A stretch of DNA of 6,444 nucleotides from assembly GCA_021788565.1 (NCBI GenBank), contig JAJYKO010000334.1, forward strand, positions 1 through 6,444, read 5' to 3'. The notes below the pieces were generated by a model, which searched no databases, had not been told where the DNA came from, and saw only the letters and a list, made by a program, of their open reading frames with translations. This document shows positions 1-6,444 of the stretch, in pieces; position 1 is the stretch's first letter; each line of letters begins with the position of its first letter. The position numbers and the translations under genes were made by a program. The stretch comes from Chloroflexota bacterium (GTDB taxonomy: Bacteria; Chloroflexota; UBA6077).

Positions 1-655
1 CGCCAACTAGGTGGCCGCGATGTATCAGGTAGACCCGATCGGCCAGCTCGGGCACTAGGTCCATGTCATGGGTAGAGAAGAGGATGGTGGTACCGAGTTC
101 ATCCCGGATCCAGCGGAGCAGTCGCAGGAGCGATTCCACCCCTTCGGGGTCCATGCCAGAGGTAGGTTCATCCAACACGAGGATTCGAGGCCGCAATGCT
201 AGCACCGCCGCTATGGCCACCCGTTTCTTCTCCCCGCCGCTCAGTTGATGTGGGGAGCGCCGCTCCATGCCGGCCATGCCCACCACATCGAGCGCCCAGC
301 GCGCCTCCTCCGCGATGCGTTCGGGAGTGTATCCGCGGTTCTGCAGCCCAAATGCGATCTCTTGCCCCACCGTGGGGGAGAAGAGTTGGTCGTCGGGTTC
401 CTGAAATACCAGTCCGACCTGCTGTCGAAGATCCTTGAGCTTCCACCCATCCAGTGGAATTCCCTCTATCCAGACCTCCCCTGCCGTGGGCCGGTAAAGA
501 CCGTTGAGGTGCCAGAAGAAGGTGGACTTCCCAGCCCCGTTCGGTCCCACGAAAGCGGCTATGATCCCAGCCGGGAGGCAGAGGGTGATGTCCTCCAGGG
601 CCACCTCACCCGTAGGATAGCGGTAGCTCAGGTCTTCCACGTGAATAGCATCCAA
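1..655 (-). CDS. cbiO: ECF cobalt/nickel transporter ATPase CbiO, C-terminus cut by window edge
   Basis: This is the cytoplasmic ATP-binding subunit that energises a group I ECF transporter. The 218 visible residues carry Walker A GPNGAGKST (37-45), the Q-loop in VFQEPDDQLF (Q85), signature LSGGEKKR (138-145), Walker B ILVLDEP (158-164), D-loop SGMD and the switch His in STHD (H196). The family runs to about 270-280 residues, so some 50-60 C-terminal residues lie beyond base 1. I place the start at TTG 655 because GGGAGGA sits 6 nt upstream; an in-frame ATG at 682, nearly abutting the cbiQ stop (688), would add nine residues but lacks a clear ribosome-binding site. It is the last visible gene of the minus-strand operon cbiM - small membrane protein - cbiQ - cbiO. 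The family call is firm; metal specificity (Co or Ni) cannot be read from an ATPase. Confidence 0.95.
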   Translation of the reverse strand, partial: MDAIHVEDLSYRYPTGEVALEDITLCLPAGIIAAFVGPNGAGKSTFFWHLNGLYRPTAGEVWIEGIPLDGWKLKDLRQQVGLVFQEPDDQLFSPTVGQEIAFGLQNRGYTPERIAEEARWALDVVGMAGMERRSPHQLSGGEKKRVAIAAVLALRPRILVLDEPTSGMDPEGVESLLRLLRWIRDELGTTILFSTHDMDLVPELADRVYLIHRGHLVG

Positions 656-687
656 AGCGGGTCCTCCCTTATCACGATCCATCCATA

Positions 688-1467
688 TCAGTGGAAATTG
701 TCGGCGAGAAGCAAGGCCGACAGGAGAAAGGCTGCCACTCCAGTCGAGCCGTACACTGTTGCGCCAAGCGGAGAGCTGGCAAAATAGTTGGTGAAGTGGG
801 AACGCTCGTCATAACCCCTGGCCTCCATGGCCTGGTGTATCCGAAGACTGCGGTCGTACGCCCTCAAGAACACCATCCCTGCCAGTGCTCCCAGCCCCTC
901 CACGCGTGTGCGCCAGCTATCCTGGATGGCGCGGCTGTCCATGGCTAGCCGCATACGATGGGACTCATCCAACAGAAGGAATAGGTAACGGTAGGTCATG
1001 AAGGCAACATCCAGCACGAAGGGAGGGATCCCCAGGGACCGCAGGCTGGCCAGGATCTCCACCATGGGGGTGGTAACGGACAGGAGCGTCACGGCCGATA
1101 CCGCCGTCAAGATGCGCAGCCCCACGAGCACCCCGAAGAGCAGGCCCTCTTGATACAGGTGCAGAGTCAGAAAATCGATCTTCCACGTGGCCAGGCTGGT
1201 CTCTCCTTGCAGAAGAGCCTGGGTCAAGACGACGAGCCAGGCAACCCCGAAGGGGATATACAGGCGGCGGAGCCACAGCCGCCAGGGGATTCTGGCCAGA
1301 ACGGTCAAGAGAACGATTGAGGTAAGAACGAGCCCCTCAGCCCACAGGTGGCTGAGCGCCACCGTCGTCGCCACCGTCCCCAGGCAGATCCAGGTCTTGA
1401 GCCTCCCATCCGCCCGGTGAAGCGGGCTTGCGCCCGCTGCCAGGCGGTCCACCCATCTTAACTCCAT
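688..1467 (-). CDS. cbiQ: ECF transporter transmembrane (T) component CbiQ
   Basis: Predicted integral membrane protein of 259 residues that couples ATP hydrolysis by CbiO to the CbiM substrate subunit. The N-terminus WVDRLAAGASPLHRADGRLK resembles the family opening (D-x-x-A-x-x-S-x-hydrophobic-H-x-x-D-x-R-x-K). Several hydrophobic segments follow (about 26-58, 71-86, 105-132, 150-166 and 236-255). The two short Arg motifs that dock T components on the ATPases are visible as AMDSR (175-179) and AMEARG (213-218). The start is ATG 1467, preceded by AGGGGG at 7 nt; an upstream ATG at 1572 would add 35 Gly/Pro-rich residues that overlap the preceding gene, and is rejected. The gene ends 32 nt before the preferred cbiO start. 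The 73-nt gap upstream can fold (see 1490-1509). Confidence 0.95.
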   Translation of the reverse strand: MELRWVDRLAAGASPLHRADGRLKTWICLGTVATTVALSHLWAEGLVLTSIVLLTVLARIPWRLWLRRLYIPFGVAWLVVLTQALLQGETSLATWKIDFLTLHLYQEGLLFGVLVGLRILTAVSAVTLLSVTTPMVEILASLRSLGIPPFVLDVAFMTYRYLFLLLDESHRMRLAMDSRAIQDSWRTRVEGLGALAGMVFLRAYDRSLRIHQAMEARGYDERSHFTNYFASSPLGATVYGSTGVAAFLLSALLLADNFH

Positions 1468-1540: not shown

Positions 1541-1837
1541 TTACCGGCCGCCAGGAGGTGCGAACAGCCCATTCCAGTGGTGACCCACGATCAGCCCGGC
1601 GAAAAAGTTGGCCACGGAGAACGCGCCTACTTGGGCATCGCCAGGAAGCTCGACGAAGGGGTGAGCCTGCGCGTGAGCGGTGGCAGCGGCCATAGCGTTG
1701 ACGATATCGTCCGTCCCCGTGCCCTCCATGTGGTGGAGCCCCATGTACTCGGCCGCCACGAAGATGGCTGCGAGGAGGAAGAACATCACCCCCAAACAAA
1801 CCTTGGTGTAGCCGTCCAGCCAGACCTTTTCCTTCAT
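1541..1837 (-). CDS. Small two-helix, His-rich membrane protein in the CbiN position; family not recognised
   Basis: This 98-residue protein is encoded between cbiM and cbiQ, where group I ECF operons normally carry cbiN or nikN/nikL. Two hydrophobic helices (about 13-33 and 70-86) flank a loop of some 37 residues, the same layout as CbiN. The residues differ: it lacks the CbiN EFGG and PWFxPxWxPP motifs and lacks the PDGLE motif of NikN. Histidines cluster at the ends of the loop and helices (H35, H36, H55, H59, H86, H87), in contexts such as GLHHMEGTGTDD and VGHHW, suggesting metal handling. The ATG at 1837 overlaps the cbiM stop as ATGA, and GGAGG sits 9 nt upstream inside cbiM, so translation is probably coupled. 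I infer an auxiliary component needed with CbiM. It could be a divergent NikL/CbiN relative; sequence alone does not settle this. Confidence 0.85.
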   Translation of the reverse strand: MKEKVWLDGYTKVCLGVMFFLLAAIFVAAEYMGLHHMEGTGTDDIVNAMAAATAHAQAHPFVELPGDAQVGAFSVANFFAGLIVGHHWNGLFAPPGGR

Positions 1838-2520
1838 GATGCCTTGCCTCCAAGGGCCAACTTCTTCCCTCGCGCAAGCAGCGGTAGAAGGTCGGGGCGC
1901 CGTTCCGCCATCAGAGTCAAAGCCGCCGCGGTGAAAACCGCCTCCAGGACAGCCAAGGGGAACTGGGTCGGTCCGTACCCCAGGAAAAAGATGAGCCACT
2001 GCTTCCAGAGGGCCATCTGCCCATGGAGGGGAATCGCCAACTCCAGGGCGCTGGTCGCGTAGGTCATGAGGTCCCCAACCAGGCCCGCCAGTCCGCCCGC
2101 CAGCCAGATGGGAGCGCCACCTCGCCGGAGGCCCCACCACATCAGGTAGCCCGAGAATCCGCCGACTATCCCCATGGAGAAAGTGTTGGCCCCCAGTGTC
2201 GTGATGCCTCCGTGCCCCAGGAATATGGCCTGGAAGAACAACACGATCGCGGAGATGAAGGCTGTTGCGAAGGGTCCCAGAACGATGGCCGCCAGGGGCG
2301 TGGCACATGGGTGGGAGCAGGAGCCGGTGACGGGGACGGGCAGGTGCATGGCTGACACCACGAAGACCGCCGCACCCATCATCGCGAGGAGAGGCTTGTA
2401 CGCTGGATTCTGCTCCGCCTTCTTCTGAGCCTGCTTTATGCCTGGGATCACGAAGGCCAGAGCAGCCCCATCCCAGGCTACCGTTTGCACCAGAGGAAGT
2501 ATGCCGTCTTCGATATGCAT
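1834..2520 (-). CDS. cbiM: ECF cobalt/nickel substrate-binding subunit CbiM (divergent copy)
   Basis: Predicted multi-helix membrane protein of 228 residues that captures the metal ion. In NikM/CbiM structures the ion is held by the N-terminal Met amine, His2 and a His near residue 67. Here the N-terminus is MHIEDGILP and the second ligand is H70 in PVTGSCSHP, both intact. Other family blocks are QAIFLGHGGITTLGANTFSMGIVG in the middle and GPTQFPLAVLE near the C-terminus. There is no signal peptide. The start ATG 2520 is fixed by the invariant MHI and by GGAGG 9 nt upstream. An unusual Cys pair (C68, C72) surrounds the ligand His in S-C-S-H-P-C. First gene of the minus operon under a cobalamin riboswitch, so cobalt is the likely substrate by context. 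Confidence 0.93.
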   Translation of the reverse strand: MHIEDGILPLVQTVAWDGAALAFVIPGIKQAQKKAEQNPAYKPLLAMMGAAVFVVSAMHLPVPVTGSCSHPCATPLAAIVLGPFATAFISAIVLFFQAIFLGHGGITTLGANTFSMGIVGGFSGYLMWWGLRRGGAPIWLAGGLAGLVGDLMTYATSALELAIPLHGQMALWKQWLIFFLGYGPTQFPLAVLEAVFTAAALTLMAERRPDLLPLLARGKKLALGGKAS

Positions 2521-2602
2521 TGAACGCGACCTCCATATCATGTTGAACAACCGAGAAAGGTCTGGGCCGATTCAATCGCTCGGTCCCGTGCGATGAACCG
2601 TG

Positions 2603-2617
2603 CTATGTGCTTTCCAT
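2603..2617 (-). other. Four-codon mini-ORF (MEST) with very strong ribosome-binding site
   Basis: The minus strand reads TAGGAGGTGGACTC and then ATG GAA AGC ACA TAG. The AGGAGG core (2630-2625) is 7 nt before the ATG, a better match to anti-Shine-Dalgarno than that of any full gene here, yet the frame stops after four codons. It lies between the riboswitch terminator and cbiM, whose start is 82 nt beyond the mini-ORF stop. It may be a translated leader, a ribosome standby or mRNA-protecting site, or the relic of a lost gene start. No frame continues it into a recognisable protein. Confidence 0.35.
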
Positions 2618-2694
2618 GAGTCCACCTCCTATCAACGTAGGGGCGCGCCGGATGCATCCCAGGATTGGGTGGCGGCATCCTGTCGGGCGCTGGC

Positions 2695-2727
2695 GAAAAG
2701 AAAACCCCACCTCGGAGAGAGGCGGGG
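2695..2727 (-). terminator. Rho-independent terminator of the cbiM riboswitch
   Basis: The minus strand folds CCCCGCCTC (2727-2719) against GAGGTGGGG (2713-2705), nine pairs including one G-U, with a 5-nt loop. It is followed directly by TTTTCTTTT (2704-2696). It stands after the aptamer and about 175 nt before cbiM, as expected for transcriptional attenuation. Its 5' arm, loop and part of its 3' arm are also complementary to bases 2824-2808 just downstream of the aptamer, giving a competing antiterminator. Confidence 0.85.
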
Positions 2728-2749
2728 CCCAGATAGCGTATCCGCTTGA

Positions 2750-2784
2750 ACAAAGAACCCCTTGCCTGCGGATAGACAAGGGGT
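2750..2784 (-). terminator. Second hairpin in the riboswitch platform, possible weak terminator
   Basis: On the minus strand ACCCCTTG (2784-2777) and CAAGGGGT (2764-2757) form a perfect 8-bp stem with a 12-nt loop, followed by TTCTTTG. The T tract is interrupted, so termination would be weak. It lies between the antiterminator strand and the main terminator, and could be a helper stem that brings those two strands together, a pause site or a second terminator. Confidence 0.4.
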
Positions 2785-2820
2785 AATCCACTCTGTTCGG
2801 ACCTGCCCCTCTCTCTCGGA

Positions 2821-2946
2821 GGTGCCAACATCCAGACAAAGGCAGTCGTCCTGGCTTATCGGCTCGTCGTGTTACGGCCGCATCACAGTTGCGGGACAGC
2901 GCCGGCTTCTCACCGGCTTCGCTCTAAGCCCCTCGGGGGGGCACCC
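2821..2946 (-). promoter_or_regulatory. Cobalamin riboswitch aptamer, copy 1 (upstream of cbiM on minus strand)
   Basis: On the minus strand the conserved core GCCGGTGAGAAGCCGGC, then CCCGCAACTGTGATG, and the B12 box GCCAGGACGACTGCC (2855-2841) are present in the right order and spacing. The terminal helix can form from GGTGCC (2945-2940) and GGCACC (2826-2821), with an extra G-U. The predicted RNA starts some 20 nt upstream. Inferred mechanism: adenosyl- or other cobalamin stabilises the fold and the terminal helix, locks away bases 2824-2821, blocks the antiterminator and lets the terminator at 2727-2695 stop transcription of cbiM and the downstream transporter genes. Fifty bases (2876-2925) are identical to copy 2. 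Confidence 0.93.
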
Positions 2947-2974
2947 TTGTCTCTGACTATTCGATTGTGAGGTG

Positions 2975-3003
2975 ATGCTAGCACGTGAAGGCAGCAACGT
3001 CAA
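2975..3003 (-). promoter_or_regulatory. Sigma-70-type promoter of the minus-strand cbiM operon
   Basis: Reading the minus strand, -35 TTGACG (3003-2998), a 17-bp spacer and -10 TAGCAT (2980-2975) are present, with an extended -10 TG (TGCTAGCAT). Transcription should start near 2968, about 20 nt before the aptamer. The same -35, spacing and extended -10 recur at 4349-4377 ahead of the other riboswitch, which strengthens the call. Confidence 0.8.
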
Positions 3004-3031
3004 ATACTTGGATACGCGGGCGCGATGGCTC

Positions 3032-3060
3032 TTGCACACCCGACAGCCTTGTGCTAGCAT
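3032..3060 (+). promoter_or_regulatory. Sigma-70-type promoter of nikMN
   Basis: -35 TTGCAC (3032-3037), a 17-bp spacer and extended -10 TGCTAGCAT (-10 hexamer 3055-3060). Predicted start is near 3067, leaving a leader of about 160 nt before the ATG at 3227. It lies back-to-back with the minus-strand promoter, with 28 bp between the two -35 boxes. The palindromic operator at 3071-3085 covers the first transcribed bases, so a bound repressor would block initiation. Confidence 0.75.
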
Positions 3061-3070
3061 GCCGCTGTTA

Positions 3071-3086
3071 TGCAACTAAGTTGCAA
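3071..3086 (+). promoter_or_regulatory. Palindromic operator 1, Nur-box-like
   Basis: TGCAACTAAGTTGCA (3071-3085) is a perfect 7-1-7 inverted repeat; written with its next base it reads TGCAA-N5-TTGCAA. The Streptomyces nickel-uptake repressor Nur (Fur family) recognises TTGCAA-N5-TTGCAA, as I recall it. It sits just downstream of the predicted nikMN start site, and a second copy lies 78 bp further on. Repression by a nickel-bound Fur-family protein is inferred; no regulator gene is in the window. Confidence 0.7.
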
Positions 3087-3148
3087 CACGCATCCCCATG
3101 AGATGAGCGGGCTGGTGGTCCACAAGAGCGATCATTGCGCCACCAATC

Positions 3149-3164
3149 TGCAACTCAGTTGCAA
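3149..3164 (+). promoter_or_regulatory. Palindromic operator 2, Nur-box-like
   Basis: TGCAACTCAGTTGCA (3149-3163) repeats operator 1 exactly except for the central base and again extends to TGCAA-N5-TTGCAA. It lies inside the nikMN leader, 63 bp before the start codon. A hairpin TGGTGG (3113-3118)/CCACCA (3140-3145) could form in the RNA between the operators. Two sites 78 bp apart suggest cooperative or roadblock repression (inference). Confidence 0.7.
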
Positions 3165-3226
3165 TTCGCTCCGATAGAGGTGGCGGCATCGGATTCGCCG
3201 CCGCGTTAAAGGAAAGGAGAGAAACG

Positions 3227-4258
3227 ATGCACATCCCCGATGGATACCTGAGCCCCACCACGTGTGCCGTCGCTTACGCTGCCGCGGCACCTTTTTGGTA
3301 CCACGCCAGCCGCCGCATCAAGGAGGTCCTCCGAAGCCAGGCGGCTCCTCTGATCGCGATGTTTGCTGCCTTCAGCTTCACAATTATGATGTTCAACGTC
3401 CCTATCCCCGGCGGCACCACAGCCCACGCAATAGGGGCCACCCTCATGGCAATAGTGGTGGGCCCCTGGGCCGCAGTGGCAGGGGTGTCCACGGCACTGC
3501 TGCTCCAGGCGCTTTTCTTCGGTGATGGCGGGATCACAGCGTTCGGTGCCAACAGCCTCAACATGGCTATTACCGCGCCTCTCGTTGGATACGCCATATA
3601 TCAGCTAATCTCCGGATCGGACCCTTCGCCCCGCAGGCGGGTCGTGGCCGCGGCGATTGGCTCCTATGTCGGTATCAACGCGGCTGCACTGCTGGCGGGG
3701 CTGGAGCTCGGCATCCAGCCGATCTTCTGGAGTGAGGGTGGAAGGGCTCTTTACAACCCATACGGACTGGAGGTTACCGTCCCCGCCATGCTGCTGGCGC
3801 ATCTCACGGTGGCCGGGTTCGCTGAAGCGGCCATCACCGCCCTGGCCGTCGCCTACCTCCTGAGGACGCAGCCGGCCCTATTGCAGGAGGGGGGTGGCGC
3901 GGACGCAAGGCGCCTGGGCAAGGCCGGCTGGAGCCTGGTCGCGGTTCTGGCCGCATTGGTGGTGCTCACCCCGATAGGACTTCTGGCTCCGGGCGGGGCT
4001 TCCTTCGAGTGGGGAGCCGAGGAGCTGAAAGGCATGGTGGGATACTTGCCAGATGGGTTGGGTCGCCTGAGCGAGGTCTGGTGGCTGGCGCCGCTGCGGG
4101 ACTACCAGCTTCCTGGAATGGGTGCAGAAGCGTCCTTCTTCCAGCAGGCCTCGGGTTACATCCTCTCGGCGGTCGTGGGGGTTGCCGTCATATTCGCCGT
4201 GGTGTTTGCAGCCCGTATAGTGCTTGTCCGAAGAACGTCAGTTGCCAACCAGCGTTGA
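3227..4258 (+). CDS. nikMN: Fused nickel/cobalt substrate-binding subunit NikM-NikN (CbiM domain plus PDGLE domain)
   Basis: This 343-residue protein begins MHIPDGYLSP. The N-terminal NikM/CbiM domain (1 to about 215) carries the metal ligands M1, H2 and H67 (in PIPGGTTAH), the last at the same number reported for structurally studied NikM. It also has QALFFGDGGITAFGANSLNM (94-113). After a linker, the C-terminal part has two hydrophobic helices (about 234-255 and 308-334) around an outer loop containing the NikN-type signature LPDGLGRL (274-281, the PDGLE motif as PDGLG) and WWLAPLRDYQLPG (285-297). Start: AGGAG 7 nt before the ATG and the required MHI terminus. No cognate nikQ or nikO adjoins it. 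The fusion type and the operators favour nickel; cobalt cannot be excluded. Confidence 0.93.
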   Translation: MHIPDGYLSPTTCAVAYAAAAPFWYHASRRIKEVLRSQAAPLIAMFAAFSFTIMMFNVPIPGGTTAHAIGATLMAIVVGPWAAVAGVSTALLLQALFFGDGGITAFGANSLNMAITAPLVGYAIYQLISGSDPSPRRRVVAAAIGSYVGINAAALLAGLELGIQPIFWSEGGRALYNPYGLEVTVPAMLLAHLTVAGFAEAAITALAVAYLLRTQPALLQEGGGADARRLGKAGWSLVAVLAALVVLTPIGLLAPGGASFEWGAEELKGMVGYLPDGLGRLSEVWWLAPLRDYQLPGMGAEASFFQQASGYILSAVVGVAVIFAVVFAARIVLVRRTSVANQR

Positions 4259-4348
4259 TCCCCGCGCAACAAGCGTGGCCGCTCAAAGCCCAACCGAGAC
4301 CCAACCCTGCCAGGCCGATAACTCGCGGATTTGGGCAAGGGGCTACGA

Positions 4349-4377
4349 TTGACGTAGCTGTTTTCAACTGCTAGCAT
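4349..4377 (+). promoter_or_regulatory. Sigma-70-type promoter of the cbiC-cbiM-cbiN-cbiQ operon
   Basis: -35 TTGACG (4349-4354), 17-bp spacer, -10 TAGCAT (4372-4377) with extended TG. The start should fall near 4384, shortly before the aptamer. Both boxes, the spacer length and parts of the spacer and early leader match the minus-strand promoter at 2975-3003, showing that promoter and aptamer were duplicated together. Confidence 0.8.
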
Positions 4378-4400
4378 TGGTGAGCAATCAAATATCAACC

Positions 4401-4542
4401 GCAAGGGTCCCCACGAGGGGCTAAGAGCGAAGCCGGTGAGAAGCCGGCGCTGTCCCGCAACTGTGATGCGGCCACAATTTGGTGGCCGATGAGCCAGGAC
4501 GCCTGCCTTTGCCAGCTGTTTACGGCCTTCGAGGACGAGGAC
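4401..4542 (+). promoter_or_regulatory. Cobalamin riboswitch, copy 2 (upstream of cbiC)
   Basis: The core GCCGGTGAGAAGCCGGC, then CCCGCAACTGTGATG, and the B12 box GCCAGGACGCCTGCC (4493-4507) match the cobalamin aptamer. Bases 4424-4473 are identical to copy 1. A short terminal helix GTCC (4407-4410)/GGAC (4533-4536) is possible. GGAC at 4533-4536 and at 4539-4542 can instead pair with GTCC at 4574-4577 and 4567-4570 in the terminator's 5' arm, a plausible antiterminator though weaker than that of copy 1. A further helix GCTGTT (4515-4520)/AACAGC (4544-4549) is available. B12 should switch the downstream genes off. Confidence 0.92.
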
Positions 4543-4565
4543 AACAGCCGCCATCTGAATGGATC

Positions 4566-4604
4566 GGTCCCCTGTCCACATTCTCGGGCAGGGGATCCTT
4601 TTTT
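4566..4604 (+). terminator. Rho-independent terminator of the cbiC riboswitch
   Basis: A 12-bp stem (4566-4577 with 4586-4597, including two G-U pairs) has an 8-nt loop (4578-4585). After a single C at 4598 come six T (4599-4604). It lies after the aptamer and 73 nt before the cbiC start, as expected for a transcriptional OFF switch. Its sequence is unrelated to the terminator of the minus-strand copy. Confidence 0.9.
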
Positions 4605-4677
4605 ATTGTCGGATCGACACCATTCGCGCCAGGCAGCAAGCCGGGAAACCGGCAAAACCAGACAGGGGAACACGACC

Positions 4678-5328
4678 TTGAAGACACGCCCTTCGCTTCG
4701 ACCGGATCAGATCGAGCCGAGAAGTTTTGAGATCATAGCGGCCCTCCTTCCAGACCTGGATCAAGCTGCTCCCGAGTGGCCGGTCGTCCGGCGGATAGTT
4801 CATACCACCGGCGACCCATCGATAGCCGGGCTGCTCAGAATCCACCCGAAAGCCGTCGAGTCGGGCGTAAGGGCCCTCCGCGCGGGCCACACGATCATCA
4901 CGGACGTCAAGATGCTCGCCGCGGGCATCAACCGAAAGCTGACGGAAAGGCTGGGATGTGAGGTAGTGTGCGCCATCGACGAACCCGCCGCGTTGGAGAT
5001 AGCCCAGGAACGGGGAATAACCAGGGGCGCAGCAGCAATGATCCACCTGCGGTCCACGGTTCCCGGCGCGGTCGTGGCCATAGGGAACGCGCCGACGGCG
5101 CTGTTCGCCTTGCTGGACTCCCTGGATGAGGGGCTGGCCGCTCCGGCCCTCATCGTGGGCACTCCCGTCGGCTTCGTAGGAGCGGCGGAGTCCAAGGCCG
5201 AGTTGGTGCAGATGACGCCGCCCGTCCCCTACATCACGGTCGAGGGAACGAGAGGCGGGAGCACGATCGCGGTCGCGACGGTCAACGCGCTGCTGAAAAT
5301 GGCAGTCGCAGAGGGGAAGGTGAGTTGA
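4678..5328 (+). CDS. cbiC: Cobalt-precorrin-8 methylmutase (precorrin-8X methylmutase family)
   Basis: CbiC/CobH moves the C-11 methyl group to C-12 of (cobalt-)precorrin-8, giving (hydrogeno)cobyrinate in the cytoplasm. The protein has 216 residues, normal for the family. Visible family blocks are [12 protein letters not shown] (36-47) with H42, the position of the catalytic His (His43 in CobH); [16 protein letters not shown] (69-84); [13 protein letters not shown]; and the near-C-terminal [17 protein letters not shown]. The start is TTG 4678 with AGGGG 9 nt upstream. A longer reading from 4489 would put the riboswitch and terminator inside the protein and is rejected. Its stop overlaps the next gene's TTG as TTGA. 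Linkage to cobalt uptake genes and a B12 riboswitch supports the cobalt-early pathway, so CbiC rather than CobH. Confidence 0.96.
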
Positions 5329-6092
5329 AGAGCTATCACGGACCAACCAAGGCCGCAGGGGCATGGGTGGCACTGGCGCTGCTGCTCGCGGGGGCACAGG
5401 TAGCTTACGCGAGGCCCCAGGAGATGCACATCATGGAGGGCTTCCTGTCGCCCTTCTGGGCCGCGTTCTGGTTCGCCGTCGCGGCCCCGTTCTGGGTGGT
5501 GGGCTTCCGGCGAGTCAGCAGGTTGGTCGCGGAGAAACCGGAAACGCGGCTGCTGCTGGGGTTGGCGGGGGCCTTCACCTTCGTGCTTAGCGCTCTCAAG
5601 ATGCCTAGCGTCACCGGATCAAGCAGCCACCCCACCGGCACGGGGCTCGGCGCCATCCTTTTTGGTCCTTCCATCATGAGCGTCCTCGGCGGAATCGTCC
5701 TGCTGTTCCAGGCGCTGCTGCTGGCCCACGGCGGACTGACCACCCTTGGCGCGAACACAGTGAGCATGGGGATCGTCGGCCCCATAGGAGGCTGGGCCGT
5801 CTGGCGAGGACTGGCCGGCCGATCTCCGACCTGGTTGGCCGTCTTCCTGGCCGCCGTCCTGGCCGACTGGCTCACCTATGTCACCACCTCGCTGCAGCTT
5901 GCGCTGGCCTACCCGGACCCGGTGGGCGGGATTCTCGCTTCATTCGTCAAGTTCGGGACGATCTTCGCCGTCACCCAGGTTCCCCTGGCTATCAGCGAGG
6001 GGATCCTCACGGTCTTGATCGTCAACGCGCTTCGTGGCATGGCACCCGACGAGTTGAAGACGCTGAGCGTGAGGGGGCTACAGAATGGGTAG
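5325..6092 (+). CDS. cbiM: ECF cobalt substrate-binding subunit CbiM (canonical copy, with signal-like N-terminus)
   Basis: As called, this protein has 255 residues. A signal-like segment (K2 charged start, hydrophobic [16 protein letters not shown]) precedes [10 protein letters not shown], the canonical mature CbiM terminus, at residue 34. Ligands are M34, H35 and H102 (in [11 protein letters not shown]). [25 protein letters not shown] and [14 protein letters not shown] are strong CbiM blocks. The TTG start at 5325 overlaps the cbiC stop, with GGGG 8 nt upstream. An internal ATG at 5424 has GAGG 9 nt upstream and would give a 222-residue protein starting directly at MHI. In related signal-bearing CbiM the AxA cleavage site touches the Met; here RPQE lies between, so the functional N-terminus is uncertain. 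Overlaps cbiN by 8 nt. Confidence 0.95.
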
Positions 6093-6432
6093 GAAGCAGC
6101 AGCTCACGCAGCGCGGCTTTCGGCCGATCGTAAACTGGTTGCTGATCGCCGCGGTGGTTGCCCTGGTGGTCGTGCCCCTGATGATCCGGACGGGCTCCGA
6201 GTTTGGGGGGACAGACAACGCGGCCGTAAACGAGATAACGACGCTCGATCCCAACGCAAAACCGTGGTTCACGCCGCTCTGGACGCCCCCTGGACCCGAG
6301 GTGGAGAGCTTCCTGTTCTCGGTGCAGGCCGCCCTGGGTGCGGCCTTCATCGGGTACTTCTTCGGCTACAAGCGGGGTCGATCGGCCGGCAACAGCACGG
6401 CTGGTCAGAAGGCAGATCAGGACCATGATTGA
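6085..6432 (+). CDS. cbiN: ECF cobalt transporter auxiliary component CbiN
   Basis: CbiN is the small membrane subunit that works with CbiM in loading cobalt. This 115-residue protein has the canonical two-helix layout: helix 1 at about 16-34, an outer loop with [11 protein letters not shown] and [15 protein letters not shown], then helix 2 ([21 protein letters not shown]) and a positively charged KRGR cytoplasmic turn. Length and motifs are typical. The start ATG 6085 has GAGGGGG 7 nt upstream and overlaps the cbiM stop (ATGGGTAG). The stop overlaps the next start (ATGATTGA). The contrast with the unrelated-looking 98-residue protein in the equivalent place of the minus-strand operon is notable. 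Confidence 0.97.
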
Positions 6433-6444
6433 CCGCTACGCCTA
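6425..6444 (+). CDS. cbiQ: Start of cbiQ, cut by window edge
   Basis: Only six whole codons are visible, reading MIDRYA, which matches the usual CbiQ opening. The ATG lies within the cbiN stop overlap (ATGATTGA), the usual cbiMNQ arrangement. Identification rests on this short terminus plus gene order; cbiO would be expected next beyond the window. Confidence 0.75.

Follow-up and report, generated by a model that had tools for sequence, protein, structure and literature searches.

X, a small protein in the cbiN slot of a riboswitch-led ECF operon, is probably a divergent CbiN-superfamily subunit with its own type of CbiM

The small protein encoded between cbiM and cbiQ, here called X, probably belongs to the CbiN superfamily as a remote branch that has diverged together with its own CbiM, and would be the small second part of the S unit in an ECF importer for cobalt. 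X and a set of weaker relatives, here called Y, are families without their own model in Pfam or NCBIfam, and X is paired with its own CbiM type. In the window (the whole 6,444-nucleotide stretch that was analyzed), the minus-strand order is riboswitch, hairpin, cbiM, X, cbiQ and cbiO (Table 1). The start of X lies inside the stop of cbiM, where minus-strand bases 1837-1834 read ATGA, and GGAGG is found just 5′ of it. An earlier sequence-only reading had placed X in the cbiN slot and had described it as coupled to cbiM by this overlap, and both statements are borne out. The hairpin in the gap between the riboswitch and cbiM is, judged from its sequence, a plausible expression platform, and the operon would be repressed by cobalamin.

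The plus strand carries a CbiM-PDGLE fusion gene, a second cobalamin riboswitch, cbiC, a second cbiM and a true cbiN. The last of these lies about 4.2 kb from X, in agreement with the earlier placement of a true CbiN some 4 kb away, and the bases from 6425 on resemble what is presumably the start of a cbiQ. This one 6.4-kb stretch (window 1541-6444) has three S units, namely CbiM-X, CbiM-PDGLE and CbiM-CbiN. Two copies of the palindrome TGCAACTNAGTTGCAA are located 5′ of the CbiM-PDGLE gene at positions 3071-3086 and 3149-3164 (0 of 200 shuffles), and the pair is perhaps the operator of a metal regulator.

Table 1. Features of the window and predicted parts of X.
Feature	Position	Strand	Remarks
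X, 98 aa, probable divergent CbiN-superfamily subunit	1541..1837	-	intact ORF, ATG start, TAA stop
Predicted parts of X (residues)	helix 9-34; loop with G41-T42-D43-D44 and short helix 42-54; H59-P60-F61; helix 66-92		
cbiM, X type, 228 aa	1834..2520	-	N-terminus MHIEDGIL; H59, C68, H70, C72
cbiQ (T unit, 259 aa)	688..1467	-	PF02361, E 3.7e-46
cbiO (ATPase), truncated by window end	2..682	-	
Cobalamin riboswitch RF00174, leader of cbiM-X-cbiQ-cbiO	2824..2963	-	65.2 bits, E 7.6e-15
Terminator-like hairpin with T-rich tail, riboswitch-cbiM gap	2702..2730	-	consensus scan only
CbiM/NikM-PDGLE fusion, for comparison	3227..4258	+	MHIPDGYL
Second cobalamin riboswitch	4388-4525		plus-strand cluster
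cbiM, CbiN type, behind cbiC, for comparison	5325..6092	+	MHIMEGFL
True CbiN, 115 aa, for comparison	6085..6432	+	GTDN motif; PF02553, E 5.4e-26

One protein search returned 182 homologues of X at E <= 0.01, and the 120 matches listed were 55-88% identical to X over 77-100% of the query. The genome scan gave 51 X loci, whose record labels include Bacillota, Nitrospirota, Pseudomonadota, Actinomycetota and Acidobacteriota among other phyla. X is rare in the sample taken from the class of Clostridium ljungdahlii, being present in 3 of 291 genomes with the central genome included. Among the listed homologues, the NCBI names read 'hypothetical protein', and 15 of the 120 bear the JGI name 'cobalt/nickel transport protein', a string that is also attached to three true CbiN proteins. 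The earlier description of X as unrecognized is therefore correct in that no cut-off in Pfam or NCBIfam is reached, but not in terms of these JGI names.

Conservation was counted in 154 X proteins. P0145, whose 244 aa comprise a tandem duplication of the X domain, was excluded. The residues present in all 154 proteins include L22, M32, D43, P60, L64, G66, D67, A72-S74, N77, G81 and F92. H35 (152/154), H59 (151/154) and M37 (148/154) are near-invariant, while the other histidines are less constant: H86 is found in 120 of the 154 proteins, with tyrosine in the remaining 34, H87 in 86/154, H55 in 64/151 and H36 in 17/154. The six histidines that were first noticed in X (H35, H36, H55, H59, H86 and H87) are all present, but only H35 and H59 are near-invariant across the family, so that two of the six mark the family. 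For the 152 of the 154 sequences that could be split, the mean net charge of the acidic loop is -4.2, and K/R residues are found at both ends. A chance ORF or an overlap artefact was considered for X and is ruled out by this conservation. The candidate relative G518/L114 (21 bits) was rejected because of its gene context.

The two transmembrane helices and the extracytoplasmic loop of X are predictions. The AlphaFold model of X (pLDDT 74) has the three helices at the residues listed in Table 1, and in a simple hydropathy window the first transmembrane helix passes and the second fails. The model of CbiN (pLDDT 65, low confidence) has the same order of a long helix, a short helix from the GTD motif and a second long helix. 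The two-helix, CbiN-like topology proposed earlier thus agrees with the predicted helix order, but the loop holds an extra short helix and the second helix is not supported by hydropathy. If both ends are inside, H35 and H59 would be on the outer side. A Foldseek search with the X model gave nothing at E <= 0.001, and the best match by sequence among solved structures was an unrelated enzyme (E 0.06).

CbiN (PF02553; NF002780, TIGR01165), which is the small component of the S unit in the cobalt ECF importer CbiMNQO, occupies the same slot between cbiM and cbiQ. Like X, it has two long predicted helices on either side of a loop, in which a G-[STA]-D motif marks the start of a short helix, and control by cobalamin riboswitches is common to both systems. 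Unlike CbiN, X has constant HPF, LPGDA and AFSxAN motifs of its own in addition to the near-invariant H35 and H59, whereas no conserved histidine is found in the CbiN alignment A2, which consists of 20 CbiN proteins out of 22 search matches. The residues that are invariant in A2 (n=20) are G42, D44, W61, P68, E72, L77, F78, Q81, L84, G90, Y91 and G94. The glycine and aspartate of the GTD motif and some positions of the second transmembrane helix are common to X and CbiN, and X lacks W61, E72 and Q81. In every printed X-CbiN profile alignment, G41-T42-D43-D44 of X aligns with the invariant G42 and D44 of CbiN.

Profile libraries were searched with the window protein and with the 30 members of alignment A1 (the query together with 29 proteins from the 120 listed, out of 182 found). 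None of these reached the curated cut-off for CbiN in Pfam or NCBIfam, and the window protein itself had no CbiN match in either library. Below the threshold, PF02553 matched 1 of the 30 members (E 0.019) and NF002780 matched 8 (best E 0.0031, 17.3 bits versus a cut-off of 84). An unrelated NCBIfam model, PRK09039.1-3, matched 11 of the 30 at a similar E of 0.0065, and E-values of this size therefore need care. Given the shared G-T-D motif, the same predicted helix order and the eight sub-threshold NF002780 matches, the earlier statement that X carries none of the CbiN motifs was overstated. DUF7472 was also considered as the family of X and was rejected, as its match (E 0.013, in 1 of the 30 members) is under the cut-off.

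The direct profile comparison of X with CbiN by hhalign varied with the alignments used. Untrimmed alignments gave 82% over 78 columns, and trimmed alignments gave 50% with a score of 28.8 (0 of 200 shuffles), which changed to 7% and 21.2 when query and target were reversed. Larger sets gave a score of 17.5, which 2 of 100 shuffles equaled, or 23.9 (0 of 200 shuffles), and the best score for X against 67 control windows taken from other transporter proteins was 23.7. The direct sequence similarity between X and CbiN is thus borderline.

The proteins called Y are five weak relatives of X (L068-L072) from a search of the family of G006, a Desulfosporosinus, and one further protein (L113) from the Nitrospirota sample. 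All six loci have the order cbiM-Y-cbiQ-cbiO, and a cobalamin riboswitch was found in 2 of the 5 Y loci scanned (L070 and L071), of which short stretches only were covered. Y resembles X in its slot, but L068-L072 carry GADxHV and INTxKGDLLLF instead of the GTDD and HPF..LPGDA of X, and the H35/H59 pair is missing: the H59 residue is present in 0 of 5, and a histidine at the spacing of H35 in 2 of 5 (L068 and L069). No model matched Y over the cut-off in Pfam or NCBIfam, and the L113 protein aligned along its length with two CbiN models of NCBIfam, below the cut-off (E 0.0016 and 0.0091). The hhalign comparison of X with Y gave 97% (0 of 100 and 0 of 200 shuffles), and that of Y with CbiN gave 81% (0 of 100), or 70% (1 of 200) when L113 was added. 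X and Y together against CbiN gave 82% (0 of 200), while an earlier X plus Y set gave 19% (1 of 100). Through these intermediates of the same slot, the profile comparison of X with CbiN is good where the direct one is borderline.

Because of the shared motif, the predicted secondary structure and the intermediate sequences, we consider it highly likely that X and CbiN are of remote common descent. It is unlikely that X is instead an unrelated two-helix protein that has converged on the CbiN slot and forms a new class of S-unit auxiliary in its own right, in the way that NikN/PDGLE appears to with respect to CbiN. Convergence would fit the failure of X to reach any curated CbiN cut-off, the near-chance result of the weakest direct comparison and the absence of CbiN's W61, E72 and Q81, but it is opposed by the Y intermediates of the same slot that join X to CbiN, and by the co-linear GTD motif and loop helix. 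PDGLE (PF13190) also bears on this alternative. Like X, NikN/PDGLE serves group I ECF metal transporters as an auxiliary component (window 3227-4258), and unlike that of X, its partner CbiM/NikM has HIPDGY. The comparison of PDGLE with X gave no Pfam match and an hhalign score of 9.9, which was equaled in 92 of 100 shuffles, as the earlier reading had foreseen in finding no PDGLE motif. PDGLE is at chance level against X, Y and CbiN in hhalign, and slot occupants without visible kinship therefore exist. NikN and CbiN were described in 2009 as alike in topology without significant similarity (accessible part of PMC2667541).

NikK and NikL of the NikKMLQO systems also replace N-type subunits, as X does, and NikKMLQO operons lie beside B12 genes or B12 riboswitches in five proteobacteria (both from the accessible part of PMC2667541). 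No match named NikL or NikK was obtained for X in Pfam or NCBIfam, two libraries that may hold no NikL model. A profile comparison with CbiN, NikN and NikL, as the sequence-only reading had proposed, thus gave no match over a cut-off but a sub-threshold kinship with CbiN, to which the Y intermediates are linked at 70-81%. That reading had also suggested a new class of auxiliary subunit. That X is a distinct subunit without its own model that replaces CbiN is supported, but an unrelated class is not, as remote common descent with CbiN is indicated. X is not described in the accessible parts of PMC2667541, PMC7689651, PMC13119186 and PMC11247825; most subscription literature lay outside the search, and X may be in print elsewhere.

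The partner CbiM proteins were compared in a set of 95 rows, consisting of 46 X loci plus the window, 35 CbiN loci plus the window, 5 Y loci, and 6 PDGLE loci plus the window. In this set L019 and L053 are one gene. It contains neither the cut cbiM genes of L032 and L016 nor L057-L067 and L073, most of which duplicate other loci of the set. The N-terminus is HIEDG[IV] in 47/47 X partners and HI[MA]EG[FY] in 36/36 CbiN partners; it is HIAEG in 5/5 Y partners (HISEG in L113) and HIPDGY in 7/7 PDGLE types. The X partners, unlike those of CbiN, also have H59 (47/47, versus K in 36/36 CbiN partners) and C72 (45/47, versus T in 36/36). C68 is common to 23 of the 36 CbiN-type CbiM proteins. H2 and H70 are present in all 95 rows and align with histidines of 5x3x_M and 4m5b_A, and we take the aligned histidines to bind metal in NikM2. 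A DNA pattern for the HIEDG start, restricted to ATG starts, was found in 3 of the 291 genomes, which are exactly the three that have X. In the tree of the 95 CbiM proteins, the CbiN partners form one clade (100/100) that is joined by the Y partners (99/97), and the X partners fall outside the CbiN plus Y group, where a single X-type clade is not supported. According to this tree, the type-specific residues are also lineage differences and no proof of contact.

In terms of gene neighborhood, cbiM is immediately 5′ of X in 47 of the 51 loci, the exceptions being L002, L016, L050 (contig edge) and L051, and the linkage of X homologues to cbiM on which the earlier reading depended is thereby confirmed. 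A cbiQ is 3′ of X in 41 of the 51 loci by the rule of the script, and in 43 when L031 and L038, where the longest cbiQ frames begin further inside X, are counted. A cbiO is within 3 kb of X in 44 of the 51, although that of L027 is a weak and distant ATPase match. In six loci (L009, L011, L026, L027, L048 and L049) cbiM-X is present without a following cbiQ, which indicates that the pairing of X with cbiM is the more stable one. An RNA-family scan of the complete set of 51 loci detected a cobalamin riboswitch (RF00174) on the same strand 5′ of X in 44; in L022, L023 and L046 its distance to cbiM is about 2.5 kb and cbiC intervenes. It was not found in L028, L029, L030, L032, L041, L047 and L050, of which L028, L032, L047 and L050 are near or cut by contig ends. 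Because of these riboswitches, cobalt would be the substrate.

Several loci show further arrangements. An extra cobalamin riboswitch is directly 3′ of cbiM-X in L027 (6340-6525) and in L048 and L049 (6402-6578), which are loci without a downstream cbiQ. In C. ljungdahlii (L060 715-1608 and L049), cbiM-X is present without cbiQ on one contig, and at another locus, also led by a riboswitch, a truncated remnant of X shares the reading frame of cbiQ and cbiO comes next. L016 (1-2962) contains, in this order, a cut cbiM, a frame that resembles X over 215-526 but was not scored as X, a CbiM-PDGLE gene and riboswitch-X-cbiQ-cbiO, and this cluster possibly has two X copies.

The presence of CbiN was counted for 38 of the 51 loci (36 genomes), with draft MAGs included. 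A CbiN match is absent from 31 of the 36 X genomes and present in 5; in the drafts, an absent CbiN can be missing sequence. The family of G006 comprises 45 genomes, with X above 180 bits in 7 and CbiN in 30. CbiN occurs in 1 of the 7 strong-X genomes versus 29 of the 38 others (Fisher p 0.0035, uncorrected for relatedness), and these 38 include the five Y genomes, three with CbiN and two without it. Among 198 Nitrospirota genomes, strong X was found in 7 and CbiN in 4 with an overlap of 0, numbers that are too few to separate exclusion from chance. X and CbiN occur together in the window and in L019, which counts against strict exclusion.

It is very improbable that X is a metal-responsive regulator or chaperone that belongs to the operon by chance and is no transporter subunit. 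Such a role would suit L002, L016 and L051, where X follows the riboswitch with no intact cbiM directly between them, but it does not agree with the slot, the rare co-occurrence with CbiN, the predicted membrane topology, the matching CbiM type and the persistence of X with cbiM alone. Its position in the operon, its topology and the CbiM that goes with it make it most likely that X acts as CbiN does. Both ends of X are probably inside and its acidic loop outside. The metal pocket of CbiM would consist of M1, H2 and H70, by analogy with NikM2. The loop of X, with its GTDD short helix and H35, M37, D43, D44 and H59, probably lies over this pocket like the loop of CbiN, and would aid the loading of Co2+ and trigger the CbiM-Q-O cycle. 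In the accessible part of PMC7689651, the CbiN loop is located over the CbiM pocket, CbiM plus CbiN is the minimal unit, and the action of CbiN on CbiM is still poorly understood.

Compatible with a CbiN-like role for X, though doubtful, is an altered function, in which X and the H59/C72 CbiM together form an entry lined by His, Met and Cys for another metal or another affinity range, and in which CbiN could not substitute for X. The extra His and Met of X and the His and Cys of CbiM suggest, at the level of sequence, a different metal intake. The near-invariant H35, M37 and H59 of X, compared with the A2 proteins and their lack of a conserved histidine, the H59 and C72 of CbiM in place of K and T, and the presence of both X-type and CbiN-type systems in the window and in L019 all point in this direction. 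On the other hand, the 44 riboswitch-led loci point to cobalt, the H35/H59 pair is not kept in Y, C68 is shared with many CbiN-type CbiM proteins, and metal contact by these residues is a prediction from sequence. Somewhat more specifically, and as tentatively, CbiM-X may be a distinct S-unit type in which H35, M37 and H59 of X and H59 and C72 of CbiM form a metal entry relay that CbiN systems lack. If this is true, organisms that have both types would use CbiM-X and CbiM-CbiN for different cobalt supplies or different metals.

X would explain genomes that have cbiM seemingly without cbiN, which is the case for the 31 of 36 X genomes mentioned above, including those of C. ljungdahlii and Desulfosporosinus. 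A CbiN stand-in that has near-invariant histidines and is matched by a CbiM with its own N-terminus offers a handle on how the small subunit contributes to loading and selectivity.
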